Positions 31,329-43,703 of a stretch of 64,000 bases of DNA are shown piece by piece (the first letter of the stretch is position 1; the number at the start of each line of letters is the position of its first letter). The stretch covers positions 186,001-250,000 of the forward strand of contig JADGAZ010000001.1 of the NCBI GenBank assembly GCA_015231755.1, read 5' to 3'. A program made the translations under genes and the position numbers. This DNA comes from Magnetococcales bacterium (GTDB lineage Bacteria > Pseudomonadota > Magnetococcia > Magnetococcales > Magnetaquicoccaceae). Under the pieces are notes generated by a model. That model searched no databases. It had not been told where the DNA came from and worked only from the letters and a program-made list of their open reading frames with translations.

Positions 31329-32060
31329 ATGTGGTCTTCCTTTTTGATGGCTTTGGGGCTGCTGACCCGTATTCCGGTTTCTTGGAACGGTTTTGCTCCG
31401 GAGCCTGGGGCGGTAGGCCGTTCGGTGCTGTTTTATCCGGTGGTGGGCGTGCTGGTGGGGGGGATGCTGGCGGGTCTGGCCTGGATCCTGATGGCCGCCG
31501 GCGTCGAGGCGGGAGTGGGGGCGGCGTGGTTGCTGATCGCCTGGGTCTGGCTGACCGGGGGCATGCATCTGGAGGGGTTGTCGGATACCGCCGATGGCTG
31601 GATTGGCGGCATGGGCAATCGGGAACGGGCGCTGGCGATCCTGAAGGATCCCCACTGCGGGCCGTTCGGGGTCATGGCTTTGGTGTTGCTTTTGTTGCTC
31701 AAATGGAATCTGGTGCGGGTGCTGTGGCAAACCGGATCCTGGGAGCCGTGGCTGGTGGCGGCGCTGCTGGGTCGGGTGGGGATCGTGGGGCTGTTTCTGA
31801 CCCTGCCTTACGTGCGACCCGGCGGCATGGGTGAGGCGGCGGCCCGGGCCATGCCCCGGGGAGCGGCCTGGATGGTGTGTCTGCTGGGGATGGGGTTGGC
31901 TGCGGGATGGGGGGGATGGCGGGTGTTGCTCTCCGGGGCGGGGGCGTGGCTGCTGGTACGGCGGGGATGGTTGAGCCGTTTTGGGGGCGTCACCGGAGAT
32001 ACCGCAGGGGCGGCGTGTGAACTGCTTGAAACGGTGGTGTTGATGGCATGGCTGCTGTGA
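31329..32060 (+). CDS. cobS: adenosylcobinamide-GDP ribazoletransferase (cobalamin synthase)
   Basis: A 243-residue integral membrane enzyme that joins adenosylcobinamide-GDP and alpha-ribazole to complete cobalamin. Typical motifs are ALGLLTRIPV near the start, GGMHLEGLSDTADGW, RALAILKDPHCGPFGVMAL and the C-terminal GGVTGDTAGAACELLETVVL, with several hydrophobic helices between. ATG 31329 follows the cobT stop by 10 bases and matches the family start. The next gene may be co-transcribed. Confidence 0.95.
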   Translation: MWSSFLMALGLLTRIPVSWNGFAPEPGAVGRSVLFYPVVGVLVGGMLAGLAWILMAAGVEAGVGAAWLLIAWVWLTGGMHLEGLSDTADGWIGGMGNRERALAILKDPHCGPFGVMALVLLLLLKWNLVRVLWQTGSWEPWLVAALLGRVGIVGLFLTLPYVRPGGMGEAAARAMPRGAAWMVCLLGMGLAAGWGGWRVLLSGAGAWLLVRRGWLSRFGGVTGDTAGAACELLETVVLMAWLL

Positions 32061-32077
32061 GGCGCGACAACACATCA

Positions 32078-33733
32078 ATGGGGCATTCGGGCATGGGGCG
32101 TTCGTTTCGGTTCGGAATCGGTTTCTGGTGTCTGGTGTGGATGGGGATCCTGCTGCCTTTGGGGGTGGGGGGTGCTGGGGTGTTCGACGCCGAAGCCCAG
32201 TTGAGCCGCTATGTCACGGTCCCTTTGGAAGCGGATCTTTCCGGCTTGAGCAGCGTGGAGCGCCAGATGATCCCCCTGCTCACCGAGGCGGCCCGGGCCA
32301 TGGAGTCGGTTTTCTGGCGTCAGAGCGTGGGGGACCCGGAGGCGTTGTTCGCCGTGCCCTGGACTCAGCCGGTACGCCAGTTGCTGGCGATCCATTATGG
32401 TCCCTGGGACCGGATGGAGAACAATCGGCCCTTGCTGCCGGGGATCGCCCCCAAGCCCGAGGGGGGCCGTTTCTATCCGGAGGATCTGACCCGGGAGGCC
32501 TTTGAAGCCGCGGCCCTGGAGCAACCCGCCTTGAAGGATCCTTTTGCCCTGGTGCGTCGGGATGGGAGAGGAGGGCTGAAGGCGGTTCCTTATCATCAGG
32601 CTTTTCACGCGTTTCACGTGTTGGCTGCCGAGCGTCTGCGGCGGGCTGCGGCCCTGGCCACGGATGAGGCCCAGGCCCGTTATCTGAATTTGCGCGCCGA
32701 GGCGTTGCTCACCGATCGTTACCAGGAGAGCGACCGGGCCTGGATGGAGATGAAGAACAATCGTCTGGATCTGATCATCGGCCCCATCGAGACCTACGAG
32801 GATGGACTGATGAGCATCAAGGCTGCCCATGAGGCGTTGCTGTTGATCAAGGATCCGGCCTGGGAGCGGCGTTTGGAGCGTCAGACCCGGCGGCTGGGGG
32901 CGTATCAGGCCCATTTGCCGGTGCCGGAGGCGTATCGGGCGGAACTTCCCGGCGCCGAGTCGGACCTCGGGGTGTACGACGCCCTGCTGATGACCGGTGA
33001 CGCCGCCGCCACCCGACCCATTGCCGTCAATCTGCCCAACGACCCCCAGGTGCAATTGGAAAAAGGCTCCCGGCGGTTGCAATTGCGCAATGTCATGCGC
33101 GCCAAGTTCGACCGGATTCTGTTGCCCATGGCGCAAACGTTGCTGGATCCGGCCCAGGTGTGTCAGGTGACCTTCGGGGCGTTGTTCGTCAATACGTTGT
33201 TTCACGAGGTGGCCCATGGTCTGGGGATCAAGAAGGTGATCCGGGGGGACGAGTCCGGCGGCACGGTCAACGACGCCTTGAAAGAAGACGCCTGGATGAT
33301 GGAAGAAGGCAAGGCGGATGCCCTCTCCTTGTGGCTGGGGGATCTGGATGGGGAGATGGAGTTGTGGGACTCCTCCCCCGACGGGATGCTGATGACCGAG
33401 GAGAGTCGCGCCGTCACCGAATTCGCCTCCCTGTTTCGCGCCATCCGTTTTGGTCCCGGCAGTGCCCATGCCCGCGCCAATTTGATCCGGTTCAATTTTT
33501 TGCAGGCGGGTGGGGCCTTCGCACGGGACCGGCAGGGTCGCTATCGGGTGGATGTGGCCCGCATGCGGGAAGCCTCCCGGGAACTGGCCAGCCGCATCCT
33601 GATTTTGCAGGGCAATGGGGATTTGAACGGCGTCCGGGAGCTGGAACGGCGCTACGGGACTCTTTCCGCCGAGTTGCTGGCGGATTTGCGACGGGTGGAG
33701 GAGGCGGGCATTCCGGTGGATGTCGCCTTCTGA
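32078..33733 (+). CDS. DPP III-like (M49-related) zinc metallopeptidase, exported
   Basis: A 551-residue protein with an N-terminal hydrophobic signal segment (FWCLVWMGILLPLGVGGAGV). It carries DPP III-family hallmarks: NNRLDLIIGPIETYEDGL, the zinc motif HEVAHGLG (His400-His404 approximately), and EEGKADALSLW with the downstream glutamate. Classical DPP III has HExxxH; this bacterial branch has a standard HExxH. It probably removes peptides in the periplasm or at the membrane; the substrate is unknown. Starts at 32078 or 32093 are both possible; upstream ATG 32048 overlaps cobS. It follows cobS closely but has no known link to cobalamin. Confidence 0.72.
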   Translation: MGHSGMGRSFRFGIGFWCLVWMGILLPLGVGGAGVFDAEAQLSRYVTVPLEADLSGLSSVERQMIPLLTEAARAMESVFWRQSVGDPEALFAVPWTQPVRQLLAIHYGPWDRMENNRPLLPGIAPKPEGGRFYPEDLTREAFEAAALEQPALKDPFALVRRDGRGGLKAVPYHQAFHAFHVLAAERLRRAAALATDEAQARYLNLRAEALLTDRYQESDRAWMEMKNNRLDLIIGPIETYEDGLMSIKAAHEALLLIKDPAWERRLERQTRRLGAYQAHLPVPEAYRAELPGAESDLGVYDALLMTGDAAATRPIAVNLPNDPQVQLEKGSRRLQLRNVMRAKFDRILLPMAQTLLDPAQVCQVTFGALFVNTLFHEVAHGLGIKKVIRGDESGGTVNDALKEDAWMMEEGKADALSLWLGDLDGEMELWDSSPDGMLMTEESRAVTEFASLFRAIRFGPGSAHARANLIRFNFLQAGGAFARDRQGRYRVDVARMREASRELASRILILQGNGDLNGVRELERRYGTLSAELLADLRRVEEAGIPVDVAF

Positions 33734-33744
33734 AAAAGGGGGGA

Positions 33745-35367
33745 TCAGTTGCCCGCCGTGGTGGGGGGATTCACCAGTTCCGCCAGTTTGAGCAGATCGG
33801 TTTTGCCATTGGCGTTCAAGGGGAGCAGGGCCAGCCGTTGCAGGTGGCGGGGCACCATGTAATGGGGCAGCCGTTGGGCGCAGGTTTCCAGGATTTCCGC
33901 ATCGGTGCGTTTCGAGTCGCAGACAAAGCCCACCACACAGGTGACATTCTCCCCCGAGGCGGGCCAGCCCACTACCGCCACCTGATCCGACTGGGCGGCC
34001 TGACGCAGGGTGTGTTCGATTTCCGACAACTCCACCCGGTAGCCGCGGATTTTCAATTGCCGGTCCACCCGGTCCAGATAGTGATAGCCCACCCCGGTCT
34101 GCCAGCGCACCAGATCCCCGGTTTTGTACCACCGTCGGGAGTTCCCGGTGGCATCCGTTTGCGAAAAATAGCTCCGTTGGGTTTCGGTGGGATTGTTCCA
34201 ATAACCCGGAGTCACCTGTGAGCCGGAAAGACACAACTCCCCTTGCATTCCTTCCGTCTCTTCGAGCAGGTTGCCATCCACCAGTATCGCCGCGGATTGT
34301 CCCGGATAGGGGATGCCGATGGGGACAATGCCGTTGAGGCACTCTTCCGGGGAGTGTGCGGCGTTCCAGAGATATCCGGTCACGCAGATGGTCCCTTCCG
34401 TGGGGCCGTAACTGTTGTCGATCACCGCGTTGGGAGCGGCGTTTTGCCACAGGCGCGCCGCCTCCCGGGTGAGCCGTTCGCCGCCGAACACGCACCAGCG
34501 CAATGACGGAAACGCCCCGGCCCGCAGCAGGCGCATGCGCTGCATGAAGGTGATCACCGCAGGCACGGATTCCCAGAAGGTCAGGGCGTGATCCTGGATG
34601 AATCGGGCCGGAGCCATGCGGCTGGCTTCCGGAACCGGATACAGACAGGCTCCCGCCGCCCAGCAGACGAATTGGTCATAGACCGACGCGTCGAAGGTCA
34701 GATCGCTGTGTTGGGAGAAGCGATCCTGGGGGCCGGGTTGATAACGCTCCAGCATGCCGACCACAAAGGCTTCGACATTGGCATGGGAGACCATCACCCC
34801 CTTGGGAATGCCGGTACTGCCGGAGGTGAACAGCAGATAGGCGACGGGTCCTCCGTCCGGCTGCGGTGCCGTCACATGGGGCGAGACGGCGAACAATTCG
34901 GTTTGCGTCACAAAACGATGCCGGGAAAGGGATTGGGTCCACTCCGGCAGGGTCGGGTGTTCGGGGAGCAGGATGGTCAGAGCGTTGGCGCTGGTTTCCA
35001 ACAACGCCTGGGCCGACTCGGCGCAGCGGGTATCCAGGATCAGCAGTTGCACCCCGGACAAGTCGGTGATGTGCCGGTTGCGGGATACGGGAAAATGCGG
35101 ATTCAGGGGCACATATCCCTTGCCCGCGTACAGGATCGCCAGAATGGAGGCGTAGGCGGTCAGGGAGCGGTATCCGAAGAGAGCCACCGTGGGATTGGCA
35201 GGGTCCGGGTTGAACCGTTCGATGGCCGAGGCGAGTTGCAAGACCCGCTCCCGCAGCTCCCCGTAACGGTAGCCGGTGTCGCCGAGAAACAGGGCGGGCT
35301 GCTCCGGTTGTCGCAGGGCGGTTTGATGGAACCGTTGGGCGATGTTGATCGGTTGCGGATTGGTCAT
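33745..35367 (-). CDS. amino-acid adenylation enzyme, DltA-like
   Basis: A 540-residue stand-alone adenylation enzyme of the NRPS/DltA family. Core motifs are all visible: LLFTSGSTGIPKGVMVSH, the Y-x-P-T-E motif in NSYGPTEGTICVTGYLW, YKTGDLVRW, DRQLKIRGYRVELSEIE and the catalytic Lys region NANGKTDLLKL. It should activate an amino acid as adenylate and load it on a carrier protein. It is the last gene of a minus-strand run, 13 bases after the MBOAT gene and with the carrier protein two genes upstream, giving a DltC-DltB-DltA-like set. The activated amino acid cannot be read from sequence with confidence. Confidence 0.88.
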   Translation of the reverse strand: MTNPQPINIAQRFHQTALRQPEQPALFLGDTGYRYGELRERVLQLASAIERFNPDPANPTVALFGYRSLTAYASILAILYAGKGYVPLNPHFPVSRNRHITDLSGVQLLILDTRCAESAQALLETSANALTILLPEHPTLPEWTQSLSRHRFVTQTELFAVSPHVTAPQPDGGPVAYLLFTSGSTGIPKGVMVSHANVEAFVVGMLERYQPGPQDRFSQHSDLTFDASVYDQFVCWAAGACLYPVPEASRMAPARFIQDHALTFWESVPAVITFMQRMRLLRAGAFPSLRWCVFGGERLTREAARLWQNAAPNAVIDNSYGPTEGTICVTGYLWNAAHSPEECLNGIVPIGIPYPGQSAAILVDGNLLEETEGMQGELCLSGSQVTPGYWNNPTETQRSYFSQTDATGNSRRWYKTGDLVRWQTGVGYHYLDRVDRQLKIRGYRVELSEIEHTLRQAAQSDQVAVVGWPASGENVTCVVGFVCDSKRTDAEILETCAQRLPHYMVPRHLQRLALLPLNANGKTDLLKLAELVNPPTTAGN

Positions 35368-35380
35368 GACGGTCCAGGTC

Positions 35381-36817
35381 TTACCAGTGCAGGCCTAACA
35401 GTCCGAGGAAGAACGTGGTGTCTTCCACGAATGAAGAGTCGGTACGGTCCCAGATGCGCAGGATGGCAAAAAAGATCCAGACCCCGGCCACCTTGCGGAT
35501 GGTCACCAGGGTGGTGCAAGGGGCCGAGTGTTTTCCCCGCTGATTCTGCTCCCGCAGGATGCTCACGAAGATGGCGATGCCCAGGATGAACGTATAGAAC
35601 ACATACGAGGTGAAACGCGCAAAGGAGAGAATCTCGCCGTTGATGATCAGGCGGTCAAAGTGTTGCAGAATGTGATAATAGAGGTTGCCGAAAAAGGCCG
35701 ACGCCATGGTGGCGGCGAAGATACGCCATTTCGGGTGTTGCTTGAAATAGGAGAGGTAAACCGGGAAGAAAAAGAAATCAACCAGCAGTTCCTTGAAATA
35801 AAAATAGTAACGGTTCCAGAAGTCGATCAGGGTCTTGGCCAGCAGCGGCTTGTAGGTGTTGCGGAACAGATTGAAGCCGAACAGCCGCAGACAGCCGATG
35901 ATCAAATGACCGACGATGGCCAGTTGGGTGGTTTCGTAGACCATATCCATGATCAGGCTGCCCCAGACCGTGATCGGGTCCGGCATCCGGGTGGCGCTCA
36001 GGATGATCAGTTCGTTGATGTGGTGCAGCTTGAACAGGGGAATGGCCCCATCGGCGGAATCGAAGAAGGACCAATCGAGCAGATCCAGGGCCGAATCCCA
36101 TATCGAAGCCAGAATCAGCAGCTTGATTCCCGCCAGTTGGATGCGGGCCAGATCGAGTCGTCCCGTGGCGCGTTTGGAATACAGATAGTCGAGGCCTTTG
36201 CCATAAGGAACCTGACTGGAACCCAGGTAGGGCAGACAGTAGATCAGGTGGTCCACGAATCCGTTTTGCTTAAGGGATCCCCGTTTGCCCGAATACAGCA
36301 AAAAGCCGATGCGCCAGACCAGAAACGAGAAAAAGACCAGGGCGGCATTCAGGTTGGTGGCCACGATCCAGGAGGGATCATCGCGGAAATCCACCGGAAA
36401 GAACAACATGACGATGATCCAGATCCATAAAGTGATGTGCAAAAAGATCTGGGGATGATTTCTGGCGATTTTTGGTAGCAATGTAAATGATTTTGCGATA
36501 CTGTAAAAAATATAAAGTATTCCGACAATCAACAGCGAGTCGATTGTCAGCCAAAAAATGCCATCGACGTTCAGTTGGTTCAGTTTGGTATAAAGAAACA
36601 GTCCACCGCAGCCCACCGCCATGATCCAGGCGCGCTGGTTGGGAAACAACTGCGTCAGAATCATCAAGGGCAACAGGGCAAGATATTTTGTGGTATACAA
36701 CAGCGCAAAAACGATTACCCAAAGAATAACATTTCCCGGAGTCGACACCGAAAACTCATGCAGACGGCTGTCTTCGTGAAATTGGGAAATCTTATGATAA
36801 TAACTGTGGAAAATCAT
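35381..36817 (-). CDS. MBOAT-family membrane acyltransferase, DltB-like
   Basis: A 478-residue polytopic membrane protein with about ten to eleven helices. It has the MBOAT core arrangement: DFWNRYYFYFKELLVDFFFFPVYLSY followed later by the histidine-bearing NLYYHILQHF, in which the His is the usual active-site residue. DltB and AlgI proteins of this fold move acyl groups from a carrier to a substrate across the membrane. Its start overlaps the carrier-protein stop (ATGA) and the adenylation gene follows by 13 bases, strongly supporting a carrier-to-membrane transfer role. Substrate and acceptor are unknown. No DltD homologue is adjacent. Confidence 0.8.
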   Translation of the reverse strand: MIFHSYYHKISQFHEDSRLHEFSVSTPGNVILWVIVFALLYTTKYLALLPLMILTQLFPNQRAWIMAVGCGGLFLYTKLNQLNVDGIFWLTIDSLLIVGILYIFYSIAKSFTLLPKIARNHPQIFLHITLWIWIIVMLFFPVDFRDDPSWIVATNLNAALVFFSFLVWRIGFLLYSGKRGSLKQNGFVDHLIYCLPYLGSSQVPYGKGLDYLYSKRATGRLDLARIQLAGIKLLILASIWDSALDLLDWSFFDSADGAIPLFKLHHINELIILSATRMPDPITVWGSLIMDMVYETTQLAIVGHLIIGCLRLFGFNLFRNTYKPLLAKTLIDFWNRYYFYFKELLVDFFFFPVYLSYFKQHPKWRIFAATMASAFFGNLYYHILQHFDRLIINGEILSFARFTSYVFYTFILGIAIFVSILREQNQRGKHSAPCTTLVTIRKVAGVWIFFAILRIWDRTDSSFVEDTTFFLGLLGLHW

Positions 36818-37068
36818 TTTGTGTATCGGTCGATCAGATCCAGGATTTTCTGAATGGATTCGAGTTCAACGGGATCGACTCCGGTATCCGAGAAATCAAT
36901 GGCGAATCGGGATTCCAGAAAGGCGATGATCTCCAGCATGGCCAGGGAGTCGATGAGACCGGACTTGATCAGACCATCGCTGTCGGCGATGCCATCCAGG
37001 GGCAGATCCGGACGTTTGATGGTGGCCAGAAACTGGATCAGGAGTTCTCGATTTTTCTGAGTATCCAT
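36814..37068 (-). CDS. acyl/peptidyl carrier protein, DltC-like
   Basis: An 84-residue carrier protein. The phosphopantetheine attachment site is SGLIDSLAMLEIIAFLE, with the serine of DSL near residue 43. Helix pattern and size match acyl carrier proteins and DltC. It is translationally coupled (ATGA) to the MBOAT gene. I infer that the downstream adenylation enzyme loads it with an amino acid that the MBOAT protein then transfers. The ATG at 37068 is the first methionine with proper length; the longer open frame to 37230 has no domain support. Confidence 0.9.
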   Translation of the reverse strand: MDTQKNRELLIQFLATIKRPDLPLDGIADSDGLIKSGLIDSLAMLEIIAFLESRFAIDFSDTGVDPVELESIQKILDLIDRYTK

Positions 37069-37498
37069 TGGATTCCTATCGGTTTGAAACGGTTGTGCCC
37101 CGGGGCGGTATCGCCTCTTGGCGTGTGATCCGTCATGGATGGAACAGGGTTCCAACAGGCGGATTTGACATGGATTCTTTTCATCACAACAGCAGGTTGT
37201 CCCATTCCAGGCGATCCGGGAACTCGGCATGGAAGAGGTCGCGGGTATGGGTGGATGGGCACCTCGGCATCAGGAACCTGTTTGCCACCACCACAAAATG
37301 CCCTATTTTTTTCACAATTTCAAGTGACCTGCTTTTTTTTGCCAGGATCGGTCCGGAGCGGTTGGTAAAGGTTCCGGCTGGAGTGGGCGTTGTGGGTTGT
37401 ATCCGTTGGCCATTTTCCTTTTTTTCCGGTACGAACAATCCCTGTCGCCTCCCGGTCGCAAAGTCAGGAACCGGGGGGAGCAACAGGGTTTGTTGCGT
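37069..37498. other. 430-bp interval with no clear gene, possible gene remnant
   Basis: No protein with recognisable domains is seen. A minus-strand open frame at 37184-37483 (99 codons) ends in HAEFPDRLEWDNLLL, which looks protein-like and could be the end of a decayed transferase, but there is no ribosome-binding site or family match I can support. Short T-tracts near 37305 and 37330 do not follow a stem. Confidence 0.3.
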
Positions 37499-39079
37499 TC
37501 ACCACTCTGCCAATCGCCACACGCCCAGGAAGCGTTCGTGCCGGGCTTTGCCGTCCGGGATCAGCATCACGGGTTGCGGCAATCCGAAGGGGGGAGCGGT
37601 CAGGTTGACCTTGTGCCAGTGGCCCAACCTGGAGGCTCCATTGGTGGCGTTCGGAAAGGTGGTGGCGATCAGATAACGGGCTTCGCTGCTTTTGAAGTGG
37701 CGCAGCGCCTGGGTTCCCAGTGCGTCCGGCAGATGGGTCAGGGTGTTGCGGCACAGCACCGCGTCGGCCCGGGGCAGCACCTGATGGCAGATGTCCGCCA
37801 CATTGAAAAAATGGTTTTTGCGCAGGGCGAACAGGGTGCGATTGTGGGCGATGATCTCCGGAACCACATCGAATCCCAGATACAGATCCCACTCCGCCGA
37901 CAGCGACGCAATCCAGTTCAGATCCCCGCAGCCCGCATCCACCAGGGTGCGCACCCCCAGTTGGCGCAAGGCGTCTTGCAGATGGGGACGCATCTCCCGG
38001 GTGGCGCTCATCAGGGAGCCGGACCCGCTGCGGGTTTCGCTGGCGCCCCACTGGTTTTCCTGATGGATCTTGGTAAACAGTTTTTGGATCTCCACCGAAG
38101 TTCCGGTGGTGGGGGGATGGGGTGGAAATCGACCGTCCGCGCCGCGGGTGCCGATGCGGCGGCGGCGCAGATCCACATCCGCGTAGGCTTCGTATTCCGC
38201 CAGGGTGCGTATTTTGCCCAGACCATGGCGTTCGATCTCCTGCAATACCTCCGGATCCGTGGAGGCGTGGATTTCCAGCAGATGTTCCAGCCGGGCCACG
38301 GATTGGCGTTGCAGCCTGCTCCAGTCGATTTTGTGGTCATCCCAGTGGCGGCGGCGGGTCCGGTCGGTGTAGTCGTGATACAGAATCACCCCGTTGGGAC
38401 TGTAGAGGTCATAACCGTGGGTCCACAATCGGACCGACAGGGTGATCTCCTCCCCCTGGAAATACAGATAGGGATCATAGGGCACTTCGTGAACCAGGGA
38501 GCCGGGACCGAACAGCAATCCGCCCCCCACGAAAGCCGAGGGACGGGGTACCGCCGGGCGGTCTTCCAGATCCACATACTCCCCCTGGGGCACCAGGATG
38601 CCATCCCGATTGAATTTTTTCGCCCGCAGATAGGGATAGCCTCTGGCAAACCGTTCATCCGGGGGAATGTACTTGTTGGGATGGGTGGAGAGGATCGCCT
38701 TGGGGGAGGGACAGGCGTGGAGCATGTCGATCAGTTGCGCGTCCCAGCCCGGATCGAAGCGGGTATGGCTGTCCACCTGTAGATAGTAGCTCTCCCCCTG
38801 GTAGAACTCCACCTGAATCCGATGGCGCGCCCAGCAGGCTCCCCGGCTGTCGTCGATGTGGATCACCCGTCCCCGCACCTGATCGGCCCATTCCGGGGGA
38901 ACCCGGAGAAAGGTGGCGTGGTCGTCTTCTTCCGGGAGGATCTGCCACAACACCCCCACCCTGATCCGTTCCGGATGGCTGGCCTTGGCGAACAGATCCG
39001 TCAGGGTCCAGGGGCATTCGCTGTCGCGATAACTGGCAATCGAGACGAACAGGGTGGCGGTGTCGTGGGCGCGCTCCAT
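37499..39079 (-). CDS. GlcNAc-type glycosyltransferase fused to a SAM methyltransferase domain
   Basis: A 526-residue two-domain protein. Residues about 8-275 match the GlcNAc (Skp1-type, GT60-like) transferase family: LFVSIASYRDSECPWTLTDLF, GACWARHRIQ, YYLQVDSHTRFDPGWD, PYDPYLYFQGEEITLSVRLWTHGYDLY. Residues about 355-500 form a Rossmann methyltransferase-like domain (VRTLVDAGCGDLNWIASL, YLGFDVVPEIIAHN, DAVLCRNTLTHLPDALG). The pair suggests addition of a sugar and methylation in one protein, for example methylated GlcNAc on a glycan or peptide. It lies in the minus-strand run between the ParB-like gene and the carrier protein. Confidence 0.82.
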   Translation of the reverse strand: MERAHDTATLFVSIASYRDSECPWTLTDLFAKASHPERIRVGVLWQILPEEDDHATFLRVPPEWADQVRGRVIHIDDSRGACWARHRIQVEFYQGESYYLQVDSHTRFDPGWDAQLIDMLHACPSPKAILSTHPNKYIPPDERFARGYPYLRAKKFNRDGILVPQGEYVDLEDRPAVPRPSAFVGGGLLFGPGSLVHEVPYDPYLYFQGEEITLSVRLWTHGYDLYSPNGVILYHDYTDRTRRRHWDDHKIDWSRLQRQSVARLEHLLEIHASTDPEVLQEIERHGLGKIRTLAEYEAYADVDLRRRRIGTRGADGRFPPHPPTTGTSVEIQKLFTKIHQENQWGASETRSGSGSLMSATREMRPHLQDALRQLGVRTLVDAGCGDLNWIASLSAEWDLYLGFDVVPEIIAHNRTLFALRKNHFFNVADICHQVLPRADAVLCRNTLTHLPDALGTQALRHFKSSEARYLIATTFPNATNGASRLGHWHKVNLTAPPFGLPQPVMLIPDGKARHERFLGVWRLAEW

Positions 39080-39117
39080 GGGTGGGATCCTGGTTTCTCA
39101 AGGATGGAAAGAGGGGG

Positions 39118-39606
39118 TCATGTCTGGACCGCGCGTCGGAACCAGACAAAATCATGGCCCATCCGGGGGTGAAAGCCGACGAAGACCGTCTGTCCCACCA
39201 GCAGGCCCAGTTGCTGCAAGGCGACGGCCCGATGGTTGCCATCGATGATCACGAAGGGGCCTTCTCCCGAAAAGGCGGTCAGAATGAGAGGCTCGAAGGA
39301 GTCCCCCACGGCGAGGGCTTTTTTCATGCTCTGGATGCGGGATTTGTGGCGGTAATCGTCCGTGCCCAGGCAGGGATCCGCGGCCACAATCGGCAGACGA
39401 CAGGAACCGAACAGCAGTTTCCAGTCCTGGGAGCCGATCACATAGAGCTTGTCGCAGTCAGCCGGTTCCATGCGACAGCGAAACCAGCACACCCCGGCGG
39501 GCAGGGGTTGCCACACCTCGGGTTTGGGCTGGGGCTTGCCTCCCGACGAACGATGCCAGGAGTGGAGCACATGGTTGTGCCATTCCACTGCGCGACCGAT
39601 TTGCAT
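39118..39606 (-). CDS. ParB/sulfiredoxin-fold-like small protein
   Basis: A 162-residue protein. The segment PFVIIDGNHRAVALQQLG matches the core motif of ParB/Srx-fold domains (IDGNHR), which bind or hydrolyse nucleotides. An upstream Cys-rich part (AGVCWFRCRMEPADCDKLYVIG) is unassigned. There is no helix-turn-helix, so a partition role is unlikely. It begins 6 bases after the AsnB-type gene stop and ends 38 bases before the glycosyltransferase, so it belongs to this biosynthetic operon. A nucleotide-dependent modification role is only a guess. Confidence 0.6.
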   Translation of the reverse strand: MQIGRAVEWHNHVLHSWHRSSGGKPQPKPEVWQPLPAGVCWFRCRMEPADCDKLYVIGSQDWKLLFGSCRLPIVAADPCLGTDDYRHKSRIQSMKKALAVGDSFEPLILTAFSGEGPFVIIDGNHRAVALQQLGLLVGQTVFVGFHPRMGHDFVWFRRAVQT

Positions 39607-39612
39607 GGAATC

Positions 39613-41481
39613 TCAATCGCCTCCCGGGGTTGACGTGGCATGATACTGGGCGCTCAACCAGCTCCACAAAAAGAGGCGATGATCCCCCCGACCTCCGCGA
39701 TGCTCCTGCCAGCGTTGTGCCACCCAGGCAAGGTCGGTTCCGGCCATGGGGAGCATGGGGGGAAGAAGCGGATCGGTTTTCAGCCAGTCGGCGATGGGCA
39801 CGCCAAATCCTTTTTTGCGACGATGGATGATGCCATCGGGCAGCAGACCGGTCATGGCCTTTTTGAGCAGATATTTGCGCACCCCCCGACGCAACTTGAG
39901 GGCGTGGGGCAGTCGTTGGGCAAAGGCCACCACATCGTTGTCCAGAAATGGTGCCCGCACCTCCAACGAGGCCATCATCGAGGCCCGATCCACTTTGGTG
40001 AGAATGTCGTCCGGCAGGTACAGATGGGTGAAATACTCCAGGCTTTTGTCGATGGGATGGGTGACTTCGGAATCGTGCCAGACCGCCAGGGCTTCGGCGT
40101 ACAGCTCCTCGGGGTCCATGGGCTGATGGAACAGTTCTCCGATCTCCTCGGGTGCCAGGGGGGCCATCCAGGTGGGATTCCACAACGGCATGGGGTGGGA
40201 GAGTCCGGCCAGGAAACGGCGTACCTTGAAATCCAGGCTCATGTTGCGACCCGATACCGGCAGTCGTGCGGTCAGGTTTCTCAAACCCCGATGCAGGAAA
40301 CCCGGCATCAGGCGGTGGTAAAGCTGGCCGGGCCCCAAGGCCAGAAAGGGATCGTATCCGGCGAACAGTTCATCCCCCCCATCCCCCCCCAGGGCCACGG
40401 TGACGTGCTGGCGGGTGAAGTGGCTCAAAAGATGGGTGGGCAGAATGGACGGATCCCCCAGAGGCTCGTCCAGACGTCCCAGCACCGCAGGGATCAGGGT
40501 TTTGGCCCCATCCAGGGTGAGGATCTGCTCCCGATGGTTGGATCCGATCCGTTGCGCCTCCTGACGGGCATAGGCGGATTCGTCGAAGGAGGGTTCTTGA
40601 AAGCCGATGGCAAAGGTGTTCAGGGAGGCGGGGGGGGCGTGTCGGGCCGCCAAAGCCAGAATGGCGCTGGAGTCGATGCCTCCGCTTAAAAAAAATCCCA
40701 GCGGGACATCGCTTTCCATGCGGCGCTTGACCGCCTGGGAGAGCAGGGCCCGCAGCTCTTCCGCCAGGGACTCTTCCCGCCGCTCCAGCAGGGCCGGATC
40801 CGGGGTGAGACGAAAGCGCCAGTAGCGTTGCTGCCGCAGGGTGAAGCGGGTCAAATCCAGCTCCAGCCAGCTTCCTCCCGGCAGTTTGCGACTGCCCTGA
40901 TACAAGGCGTTGGGAGCCGGAATGAAGCCATAAGCGAAATATTTCTGCAACACCTTGGGATCGATGCCGCCGGTGAAACCCGGATGCCGCCGCAGGGCCG
41001 ACAACTCGGAGGCAAACAGGAATAAATCCTTTTGCAAGGCGTAATAGAACGGTTTCTTGCCGAAGCGGTCCCGGGCGGCGAACAGCCGTCGGTTGTCGGG
41101 ATCGAAGATCACGAACGCGAACATGCCGTTGAGCCGTTCGGGCAGTCCCGTGCCCCACTCCCGGTAGCCGTGGAGCAGGGTTTCGGTATCCGAGTGGTGG
41201 GAGACGAAGCGGTGACCCCGCTGGATCAAGGTGGCGCGCAAGGCCGCGTGGTTGTAGATCTCCCCGTTGAAGACCACGCACAGCTTCCGGTCTGTGGTCC
41301 ACATGGGCTGTTTGCCCCCGTCGATGTCCAGGATCGCCAGGCGTCGGTGTCCCAGAAAGACCCGCTGTGCCTCATCGGCGCACAGACCCTCGCCGTCCGG
41401 TCCCCGATGGGTCAGGGCACGGGTCATCCGTTCCAGGTCGGTCTGGGTTCCTGGACCCGCGAATCCGGTGATGCCGCACAT
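39613..41481 (-). CDS. asnB: glutamine-dependent asparagine synthase-family amidotransferase
   Basis: A 622-residue protein with the N-terminal glutaminase nucleophile Cys2 (MCGITGFAG), HRGPDGEG, the glutaminase loop FNGEIYNHAALR, and a C-terminal synthetase domain with the PP-loop SGGIDSSAILAL and GGDGGDELFAGYDPF. Length and order fit AsnB. In polysaccharide and peptide clusters such enzymes amidate sugar acids or build amide bonds, so the substrate may not be aspartate. It is in the minus-strand run with the glycosyltransferase and Dlt-like genes. The start is set by Cys2; an open frame upstream of 41481 has no support. Confidence 0.92.
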   Translation of the reverse strand: MCGITGFAGPGTQTDLERMTRALTHRGPDGEGLCADEAQRVFLGHRRLAILDIDGGKQPMWTTDRKLCVVFNGEIYNHAALRATLIQRGHRFVSHHSDTETLLHGYREWGTGLPERLNGMFAFVIFDPDNRRLFAARDRFGKKPFYYALQKDLFLFASELSALRRHPGFTGGIDPKVLQKYFAYGFIPAPNALYQGSRKLPGGSWLELDLTRFTLRQQRYWRFRLTPDPALLERREESLAEELRALLSQAVKRRMESDVPLGFFLSGGIDSSAILALAARHAPPASLNTFAIGFQEPSFDESAYARQEAQRIGSNHREQILTLDGAKTLIPAVLGRLDEPLGDPSILPTHLLSHFTRQHVTVALGGDGGDELFAGYDPFLALGPGQLYHRLMPGFLHRGLRNLTARLPVSGRNMSLDFKVRRFLAGLSHPMPLWNPTWMAPLAPEEIGELFHQPMDPEELYAEALAVWHDSEVTHPIDKSLEYFTHLYLPDDILTKVDRASMMASLEVRAPFLDNDVVAFAQRLPHALKLRRGVRKYLLKKAMTGLLPDGIIHRRKKGFGVPIADWLKTDPLLPPMLPMAGTDLAWVAQRWQEHRGGRGDHRLFLWSWLSAQYHATSTPGGD

Positions 41482-41531
41482 CTGGACTCCTTGACCCTGT
41501 TTCGGGTTCGGCAGCGTGACGGGTGGTGGTG

Positions 41532-42374
41532 TCAGGGGGCGGAAGGGGCGGTCGGAGTCTGGGGCTTGACGCCGGAGACCGACCAGGACATCTGGTTGGT
41601 CCACACCGAGACGATATCCGTCAAACCCGCTTGTCGCAGCAGATTTTCCGCCTCCTCCCGACGGTAGTACAGGGCGATCTGGGGTAACATGTGATCGAAG
41701 GTGATCTGTTTCAGATGGCGCAGGGTGGTTTTGCGGAGCAGGTCGTGATAGGGCAGCCGTCCCCAACCCAGATGCAGCATGACCCACAGTACCACCGCCA
41801 GTCCCCACGACAGGTGATCCGTGATGCGGATCGGCAGCCGACTGAAGAGAAAACGGCGTACCGGATTGAACAGATGCACGATCCAGCCATTGTTTTCCCG
41901 GCCATAGAGCCACACCAGCACCCGGCCACCGGGTTTGGTGGCTTTGGTCATGTTGCGCACCGCCAGTTCGGGATTTTCCAGGTGGTGGATCACCCCGAGG
42001 CTGAAGGCGATGTCGAAGTGGTCCTGGAAGTCGATCTGATAGGCGCTCATCCAGCGCACATCCACCGGCACATCGGTCTTGGCGCGCAGGATGTCGCGGG
42101 CGAACGCCAAAGCACCTTCATCCACGTCGATGGCCACACCGGGACCGGCTCCTCTTTGGGTGGCCCACAGGGAGTTGCGTCCCATGCCGCAGCCCACATC
42201 CAGAAAAGAGGCCTCTTTCCAGAGTTCCCGGGGCAGGGCCGCAGTCCAGCCGTCGAACTGTTCCACATGGATGTCCAGCAGTTTCTTGAGCACATGGGAA
42301 TAGCCGAAACGGTCCGGGGAGCCGGCGTGAATGTCGGGTGTGTTGCGCTGGGATGGATCGGATGGGTGGGTCAT
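41532..42374 (-). CDS. class I SAM-dependent methyltransferase
   Basis: A 280-residue methyltransferase. Motif I is FLDVGCGMGRNSLWA, the acidic residue ending strand 2 is in VAIDVDEGALAFAR, and the FDIAFSLGVIHHLENPELAV segment and GGRVLVWLYGRENNG are typical of the type-11 family. Hydrophobic stretches near VLWVMLHLGWGR may bind a membrane or lipid. It lies 50 bases upstream of the amidotransferase gene and belongs to the same run. Substrate unknown. ATG 42374 is used; a TTG nine bases earlier is possible. Confidence 0.85.
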   Translation of the reverse strand: MTHPSDPSQRNTPDIHAGSPDRFGYSHVLKKLLDIHVEQFDGWTAALPRELWKEASFLDVGCGMGRNSLWATQRGAGPGVAIDVDEGALAFARDILRAKTDVPVDVRWMSAYQIDFQDHFDIAFSLGVIHHLENPELAVRNMTKATKPGGRVLVWLYGRENNGWIVHLFNPVRRFLFSRLPIRITDHLSWGLAVVLWVMLHLGWGRLPYHDLLRKTTLRHLKQITFDHMLPQIALYYRREEAENLLRQAGLTDIVSVWTNQMSWSVSGVKPQTPTAPSAP

Positions 42375-42512
42375 AGTGATCAATCAAGGGACAAGGGAAG
42401 AGAGTGGACCGGAAGCAGGGCAAAGATTTTCTTTGGCAATGCAAAGTGTTATCAGTCTACAGAGGCTGGGAGGGCGCGTCAAGTCCCGTTGCCGGGAGGA
42501 AGCGGGACGGCA

Positions 42513-43703
42513 TCAGGCGTCGTCGGTGCCCCGCAGGGCGAACCACAGGGTGCCGGCCACGCCGAACCCGGTGGCGGCCCAGAGGTTGACGGCGGGTCCG
42601 AGTTGCCACAGATAGGCCCCGCCCAGAGCCCCCAGTGAGACGAACAGATCCCGCACCAGATAATAGGCCCCGAACGCGGCAGCCCGATGATCCGGGGGGG
42701 CGAGGTCGAGGATCAGGGCCTTGCGGGCCGGTTCGCCGAACTCTTTCAAGCCCCGCACCACGAAGGCCACCACCAGCATGCCAAAGGAGTCGGCGTGCAG
42801 CAGCATCAGGGGAAAGGCGGTGAAAAACAAAAAGGTGATCAAGACGAAGGGTTTTTTGCCGGTGCGATCGGCCATCCAGGCCACAGGCAGATAAATCAGC
42901 ACGGCTGTGGCCATTTCGATGGAGGTGAGCAGGCCGAATTCCACCGCCGTGACCGGTTGGGCGATGTTTTTCATGCACCACACCACCACGAAGGCGTAGG
43001 GAATGTGTTCACAAAAGCGGATCAGGATATCCGAAACCAGCAGACGGCGCATGTTGGGGGTGAGCAGGGCGAGAATCTGGCCCGGCGCGGTGGGGGGCGT
43101 GGGTCCGGGACGGTCGTCGGGGATGAGCCGTTGCTGGGCGAAGAGTCCCATCAGGGCCAAAACCAGGGCCATGACAAAGGAGAGACGAATGCCGTCCACC
43201 TCCCCGAACCGGTCGATGCACACCCCTCCCATGATGGGGCCCAGGGCCATGGGAATCCGTTTGACCAAAGAGTGCATGGTCACGCCCATGGTGCGTTTGT
43301 TGGCCGGGAGTACTTTGGCGATCAATCCCATGCTGGCCGGAAGCGACAGGGAACTCCAGGCCAGGAAAAGGATGGCTCCCACCAATACCGCCTCCCAGCG
43401 GGGAATCAGGATCACCAGCAGATAGCCGCTCATGGCGGTCAGATTGATGATCAACAGGCTTTTGCGGATGCCGAAGTGTTCCGCCAGATAGCCGCCGGGC
43501 AGGGAGTAGAGGGCGGACAGGAGATTGTTCATGGCCCCGAGCAGGCCGATCACCCAGGGTCCGCCCCCCAGGGCCAGGAGATAGATGGGCAGAAACCGTT
43601 CCGCCATCCGTTCCCCCAACCCCACCAGAATCACCAACAGCAGCAGCCCCACGGTTTCGCGTTTCAGGGCCAGAAAGGTGAACAGGTGTCTGGAGCGGGT
43701 CAT
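42513..43703 (-). CDS. major facilitator superfamily transporter
   Basis: A 396-residue membrane protein with about twelve helices. The first cytoplasmic loop GGYLAEHFGIRKSLLI resembles the MFS GxLaDrxGrrk signature, repeated in the second half as VAWMADRTGKKPFVL. MFS members export or import small solutes by proton coupling. Position is ambiguous: it starts 40 bases after chrA and ends 138 bases before the methyltransferase. It could therefore serve chromate/metal stress or export the product of the biosynthetic run. Confidence 0.85.
   Translation of the reverse strand: MTRSRHLFTFLALKRETVGLLLLVILVGLGERMAERFLPIYLLALGGGPWVIGLLGAMNNLLSALYSLPGGYLAEHFGIRKSLLIINLTAMSGYLLVILIPRWEAVLVGAILFLAWSSLSLPASMGLIAKVLPANKRTMGVTMHSLVKRIPMALGPIMGGVCIDRFGEVDGIRLSFVMALVLALMGLFAQQRLIPDDRPGPTPPTAPGQILALLTPNMRRLLVSDILIRFCEHIPYAFVVVWCMKNIAQPVTAVEFGLLTSIEMATAVLIYLPVAWMADRTGKKPFVLITFLFFTAFPLMLLHADSFGMLVVAFVVRGLKEFGEPARKALILDLAPPDHRAAAFGAYYLVRDLFVSLGALGGAYLWQLGPAVNLWAATGFGVAGTLWFALRGTDDA

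Follow-up and report, generated by a model that had tools for sequence, protein, structure and literature searches.

The Dlt system (DltABCXD) combines an adenylation enzyme, a carrier protein and a membrane protein of the MBOAT family, DltB. In the characterised envelope MBOATs the acyl group is passed to the tyrosine of an FxYxxF motif, located on DltX or at the C terminus of the MBOAT, and from there to an SGNH protein (PMC12148441). A published Gram-negative analogue is AlmEFG of Vibrio cholerae (PMC3783018, PMC11253843), where the lipid acyltransferase is supplied by an adenylation enzyme and a carrier and works without a DltD-type protein (PMC3783018). A cassette of three genes, encoding a carrier protein, a predicted divergent MBOAT and a stand-alone adenylation enzyme (A enzyme; the three are referred to below as the trio), was analysed at positions 33745-37068 of a 64,000-nucleotide stretch (the window) of a Magnetococcales genome (3.84 Mb, 98% complete). 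An initial annotation of the window, made from the sequence alone, had proposed this cassette with ATGA coupling of the carrier and MBOAT genes, and the cassette is real and its coordinates correct. It is conserved and previously unlabelled, and is neither a Dlt system nor AlmEFG but a variant of the systems built from an A enzyme, a carrier and a membrane acyltransferase; no description of it was found in the papers searched, most subscription journals lying outside that search. The favoured reading, given a probability of roughly 0.55, is that the trio would be a self-contained aminoacyl-transfer module, in which a carrier-bound cationic amino acid is handed straight to an acceptor embedded in the membrane.

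Orthologues of the membrane protein were identified in 14 genomes of the same family, including the source genome, with 52-88% identity, and the trio genes retain ~51-98% identity across the family while the neighbouring genes vary, which argues against a chance arrangement. The carrier and MBOAT genes are adjacent in 12 of the 13 other cassette genomes of the family, and the A gene follows the MBOAT gene in 11 of them. In G027 and G032 the A gene is found on a different contig, beside genes for a polysaccharide deacetylase and a CRP-like regulator; retention of the orthologue despite the broken order indicates a functional link within the trio. The trio is exactly the conserved unit, its gene order having broken in places while the gene set was kept. 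A 4-nt ATGA overlap between the carrier and MBOAT genes is present in 7 of the 13 loci compared, the window locus included. The carrier gene was assigned an ATG start, as longer alternative starts are not conserved. It is preceded by a gap of 430 bp, and five genomes (the window and loci L024, L026, L027 and L028) share, at variable distance upstream of the carrier gene, a likely promoter block similar to GAAAAAAATAGGGCATTTT. Because of this gap and the common upstream block, the three genes probably form an operon of their own. No membrane-protein orthologue was found in four less complete genomes of the same genus (57-88% complete). In G026 a gene starting with an XRE-type helix-turn-helix region (L038:12162-12836) splits the carrier gene from the MBOAT gene, apparently by insertion.

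All core motifs are present in the A enzyme, which scores above the cut-off of the amino-acid adenylation model TIGR01733 (325.9 bits against 317.4) but far below those of the fatty-acyl ligase models (best PRK06187, 172 bits against 476). By these models it is an amino-acid and not a fatty-acid ligase. It also fails the DltA equivalog model (TIGR01734, 229 bits against 559.85), and among its PDB relatives AlmE (4oxi) outscores DltA (274 versus 164 bits). The phosphopantetheine serine of the carrier, S41, is located in a G-L-I-D-S-L motif, the DSL of which is invariant in the 14 orthologues. The best NCBIfam and PDB relatives of the carrier are amino-acyl or peptidyl carriers; its match to DltC is weak, and it fails the DltC equivalog model (NF003464, 16.5 bits against 68). 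A match of the carrier to the acyl carrier protein (ACP) model of an ornithine-lipid pathway (30.6 bits, cut-off 130) was set aside, the published account of that pathway featuring an alpha/beta hydrolase together with a GH3-like enzyme (PMC12493201).

The Pfam MBOAT model (PF03062) matched none of the 16 members of the membrane-protein family, even at an E-value of 5, and the NCBIfam DltB model (TIGR04091) matched 4 of the 16 (best E-value 8e-5), the window protein not being among them. However, profile-profile comparison using hhalign against six canonical DltB/AlgI-type MBOATs gave 94.5-97.2%, strongest around the FWRRWH region. An AlphaFold2 (AF2) model calculated from a diverse alignment, with a predicted local distance difference test score (pLDDT) of 76.5 and a predicted template modelling score (pTM) of 0.74, was matched by Foldseek to DltB, HHAT and MBOAT7 with a probability of 1.00. 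VIA gave Z scores of 21.3 to DltB 8jem and 20.7 to 6bug, with 370-373 residues aligned at a root-mean-square deviation of 4.4; the top 24 chains of its ranking were all MBOATs (Z 9.6-21.3), the first non-MBOAT chain following at Z 6.7. For an AF2 model based on 13 closely related sequences (pLDDT 66), Foldseek returned nothing meaningful, and the MBOAT alignment, used as a profile against PDB sequences, gave no match. On the basis of the profile-profile comparison and the predicted-structure match, the membrane protein is assigned as a divergent MBOAT by its modelled fold. The initial label, a guess without a Pfam match, was thereby borne out, acyltransferase fold features being found in the predicted structure. 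H382, a histidine following a Gly/Ala-Asn motif and conserved in 16 of 16 members, is a candidate catalytic residue.

DltD (PF04914), already noted as missing by the initial annotation, was absent from all 10 genomes tested, including the source genome, with a positive control. A scan of the whole window and of every trio locus identified no open reading frame (ORF) ending in FxYxxF, and the C terminus of the trio MBOAT is likewise without this shuttle motif. One FxYxxF-ending ORF each was recovered from the control loci L080, L081 and L082, which carry a full enterobacterial-type Dlt-like operon with DltX and a protein in the DltD position, and from the ordinary MBOAT loci L043 and L087. The source genome encodes no MBOAT recognised by PF03062, so that a partner system borrowed from such an MBOAT is not available there; other MBOATs do occur in some relatives. 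Neither an MprF-type lysylphosphatidylglycerol synthase (PF09924) nor an OlsB/OlsF-type acyltransferase (PF13444) was found in six genomes of the family tested, which is weakly consistent with a lipid acceptor. PF13444 proteins are present in G039, a related genome without the trio, and also in G130 and G048, which carry diverged trios.

Taken together, amino-acid adenylation, the predicted MBOAT fold and the carrier serine support the three-part logic initially proposed; the setting in a cell with an outer membrane is supported as well. Neither of the two outcomes named as refuting by the initial annotation, a membrane protein without acyltransferase fold features or an adenylation enzyme of the fatty-acid ligase type, was obtained. 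Like the trio, the Dlt system joins an A enzyme, a carrier and an MBOAT; however, the trio loci are without DltD, DltX and FxYxxF, the A enzyme and the carrier of the trio score below the cut-offs for DltA and DltC, the amino-acid pocket differs, and the trio MBOAT is too divergent for the Pfam model and has tyrosine for the first conserved histidine. The MBOAT-SGNH pairs PatAB, AlgIJ/X and WssHI, which share the inner-membrane MBOAT fold, use acyl-CoA, a C-terminal FxYxxF on the MBOAT and an SGNH partner (PMC12148441), none of which was found in the trio. The nearest functional precedent is AlmEFG, which glycylates lipid A in the Gram-negative Vibrio cholerae with a stand-alone A enzyme, a carrier, a membrane acyltransferase and no DltD. 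On the best reading the trio would be AlmEFG-like but with an MBOAT as transferase, AlmG belonging instead to the LPLAT family. The emphasis of the initial annotation on a Gram-negative setting was correct for the host, but such a setting is not unusual, given AlmEFG and the Dlt-like operons of enterobacterial-type genomes. Complete operons of this kind are located at L080:6716-10786 and L082:7174-11066, with a DltD-position protein, DltX, MBOAT, A enzyme and carrier; their DltX is 40 aa long and ends in FEYQKF/FEYQQF, and their MBOAT has WNG and not the usual WHG.

In the proposed mechanism, the A enzyme would activate one alpha-amino acid with ATP and load it as a thioester onto the phosphopantetheine of the carrier, as expected from the families to which the two proteins belong. 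Following the precedent of DltC and DltB, the carrier would dock at the cytoplasmic face of the MBOAT, which would take the aminoacyl group from the thioester and pass it directly to a hydroxyl or amine of a membrane-embedded acceptor. Direct transfer is proposed because no tyrosine shuttle motif and no SGNH partner were found, and is modelled on AlmG with lipid A and on lipid- and protein-acylating MBOATs. Lipid A, diacylglycerol, phospholipids and other lipid-linked molecules are candidate acceptors. Direct acylation of lipids is known from MBOATs such as LPCAT3 and MBOAT7, which makes it plausible that the acceptor is a lipid; the likely effect would be a less negative membrane or envelope lipid. 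A more specific and decidedly tentative version is that the trio would make a cationic aminoacyl membrane lipid (ornithyl/lysyl ester or amide) independently of tRNA, by a route not yet described, through a new MBOAT subfamily that takes the place of MprF and OlsB/OlsF. MprF uses aminoacyl-tRNA and OlsB/F N-acylate free ornithine; if the trio acts on a lipid, its product would belong to a similar class, that of membrane lipids carrying a cationic amino acid. Should direct transfer be correct, carrier-fed MBOATs can acylate a membrane acceptor without the tyrosine-motif and SGNH steps, and the trio would be a third solution to the same task beside Dlt and AlmEFG. It is also a defined, testable set of three genes from magnetotactic-type bacteria, a group about whose lipids little is known.

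The amino-acid pocket was read by mapping onto the core motifs, using presumed PheA-numbered positions that agree with alignments to the PDB relatives. The resulting code, DAYEVGSICK (D226, A227, Y230, E266, V293, G295, S319, I327, C328, K522), is conserved in all 14 orthologues, the only changes being Y/H, V/I and S/T, and D226 and K522, the equivalents of Asp235 and Lys517, are invariant. As the initial annotation had suggested, the pocket was compared with those of DltA and of nonribosomal peptide synthetases. The specificity residues are L198 and C269 in DltA (D-Ala) and L248 and C316 in AlmE (Gly) (PMC11253843), whereas Ala227 and Gly295 occupy these places in the trio enzyme, which corresponds to neither pocket; D-alanine is an unlikely substrate because the pocket is unlike that of DltA. 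An amine-binding Glu is located at code position 4 in the ornithine-activating module 2 of BacB, and Ala is found at code position 2 in lysine-activating homopolymer enzymes (PMC10522769). Both residues recur at these positions in the trio enzyme (E266 and A227), which makes a cationic diamino acid (lysine or ornithine) the most likely substrate, as a best guess and not a demonstration. A small or aromatic amino acid, with the mechanism otherwise as above, would be the less probable though still serious choice, and concerns the substrate only, overlapping the other readings. IdnL7 (6akd; small L-amino acids) and AlmE (glycine) score high among the PDB relatives, and the code begins with D-A as in PheA and has Tyr/His at position 3; the Glu at position 4, however, is invariant in the 14 orthologues and hard to reconcile with a neutral side chain. 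Codes differ in the more distant trios (DNFFMGCCIK and DHFFLALVDK), which would fit a common transfer chemistry used with different amino acids, and a family of different membrane aminoacylations may therefore exist. A paralogous A enzyme with the code DLHVLCLVAK, which is DltA/AlmE-like (its last residues vary in L050), was observed at L048:8619-10477, L049:8693-10530 and L050:5193-7033; it is directly coupled to its own carrier, without an MBOAT, beside polysaccharide-type or methyltransferase genes.

Direct transfer of a cationic amino acid has to be weighed against several findings. The first MBOAT histidine, that of FWRRWH, is replaced by tyrosine in the window protein (FWNRYY) and by Tyr or Thr across the family, and in a crude alignment H382 is offset by 1-2 residues from the canonical WHG histidine. 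No characterised match was found for the exact ten-residue code, a paper search for exact codes yielding almost nothing, and in the cationic homopolymer enzymes the Glu is at position 3, not 4. In addition, an SGNH protein not covered by PF04914 may be encoded elsewhere. The last point would suit a Dlt- or PatAB-like export, in which the amino acid, moved through the membrane by the MBOAT, would reach a periplasmic SGNH transferase encoded at an unlinked site, and lipopolysaccharide (LPS), capsule or another glycan would be modified. In line with such an export, DltB is both the closest fold and, through the TIGR04091 matches, the closest sequence profile, the characterised envelope-polymer MBOAT systems are paired with SGNH proteins (PMC12148441), and the A gene of G027 and G032 adjoins a polysaccharide deacetylase gene. 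It is nevertheless judged rather unlikely, as DltD was found in none of the genomes tested, no FxYxxF was present on the MBOAT or a microprotein at any trio locus, and no neighbouring gene is conserved across the family. Far less likely still is that the trio belongs with the adjacent glycosyltransferase, methyltransferase, asparagine-synthetase-like and major facilitator superfamily (MFS) transporter genes (37499-43703) and that the product is an aminoacylated secreted glycoside or peptide. These genes are on the same strand and adjacent to the trio in the window and in L024, and asparagine-synthetase-like and methyltransferase genes are common in clusters for secreted glycosides and peptides. 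However, they adjoin the trio in only the closest relative among the 13 other genomes, and the 430-bp gap with its own promoter-like block separates them from the carrier gene; this reading is largely refuted by the neighbourhood comparison, and the glycosyltransferase, methyltransferase and amidotransferase counted as parts of the system by the initial annotation were rejected as components. A glycan acceptor, as in the aminoacylated LPS, capsule or secreted glycoside suggested by the initial annotation, is hypothetical, a lipid acceptor being at least as likely.

Genes for the glycosyltransferase-methyltransferase fusion, a ParB-like protein, the asparagine-synthetase-like protein, a methyltransferase and the MFS transporter are common only to the window and its nearest relative, L024. 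Elsewhere the trio adjoins tRNA-modification genes, sensor kinases, cobalamin genes or RND pumps. Please see Table 1 for the positions of the trio and its neighbours.

Table 1. Positions of the trio genes and of nearby features in the window
Feature	Position	Strand	Remarks
Adenylation enzyme (A gene)	33745-35367	minus	540 aa, stand-alone
Membrane protein, predicted divergent MBOAT fold	35381-36817	minus	478 aa, multi-pass
Carrier protein (ACP)	36814-37068	minus	84 aa, ATG start
ATGA stop/start overlap of carrier and MBOAT genes	36814-36817	minus	read in sequence
Upstream block CTTGAAATTGTGAAAAAAATAGGGCATTTTGTGG, likely promoter of operon	37291-37325	minus	220-260 nt before carrier start; similar blocks in relatives
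Glycosyltransferase (N-acetylglucosamine (GlcNAc)-type, PF11397)-methyltransferase fusion	37499-39079	same as trio	adjoins cassette only here and in L024
162-aa protein	39118-39606		no Pfam match, weak SerK-like match; between glycosyltransferase and asparagine-synthetase-like genes
Peptidase M49-like protein	32048-33733		retained near cassette in several genomes of genus

When the same three genes were sought in other Gram-negatives, they were found, beyond the 14 genomes of the family, in diverged form in other lineages. A search of ~400 genomes of the phylum identified two further clear relatives, G130, with the order A-MBOAT-carrier between a proton pyrophosphatase gene and, two genes on, a BamE-like gene, and G048, with the order A-carrier-MBOAT adjoining clp genes; both of these diverged trios are surrounded by housekeeping genes. 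No further member of the trio-MBOAT family was found in 385 genomes of the class of G130, where two weak matches were ordinary MBOAT systems, and searches of plasmids gave weak matches to ordinary MBOATs or none; a class-level search around G048 covered one genome. The module is rare, yet recurs as a complete set in unrelated contexts. Other Magnetococcales families have a longer version of the MBOAT, of ~570 residues, with the A-carrier-MBOAT order in L039 and L040. At L039:5996-10960, L040:7424-14482 and L042:7840-15504 the A-carrier-MBOAT module is located near a phosphatidylserine decarboxylase-family gene, in which WGSQ replaces LGST, and in two of these three loci a sulfatase-family gene is also nearby; these neighbours may hint at a phospholipid acceptor.

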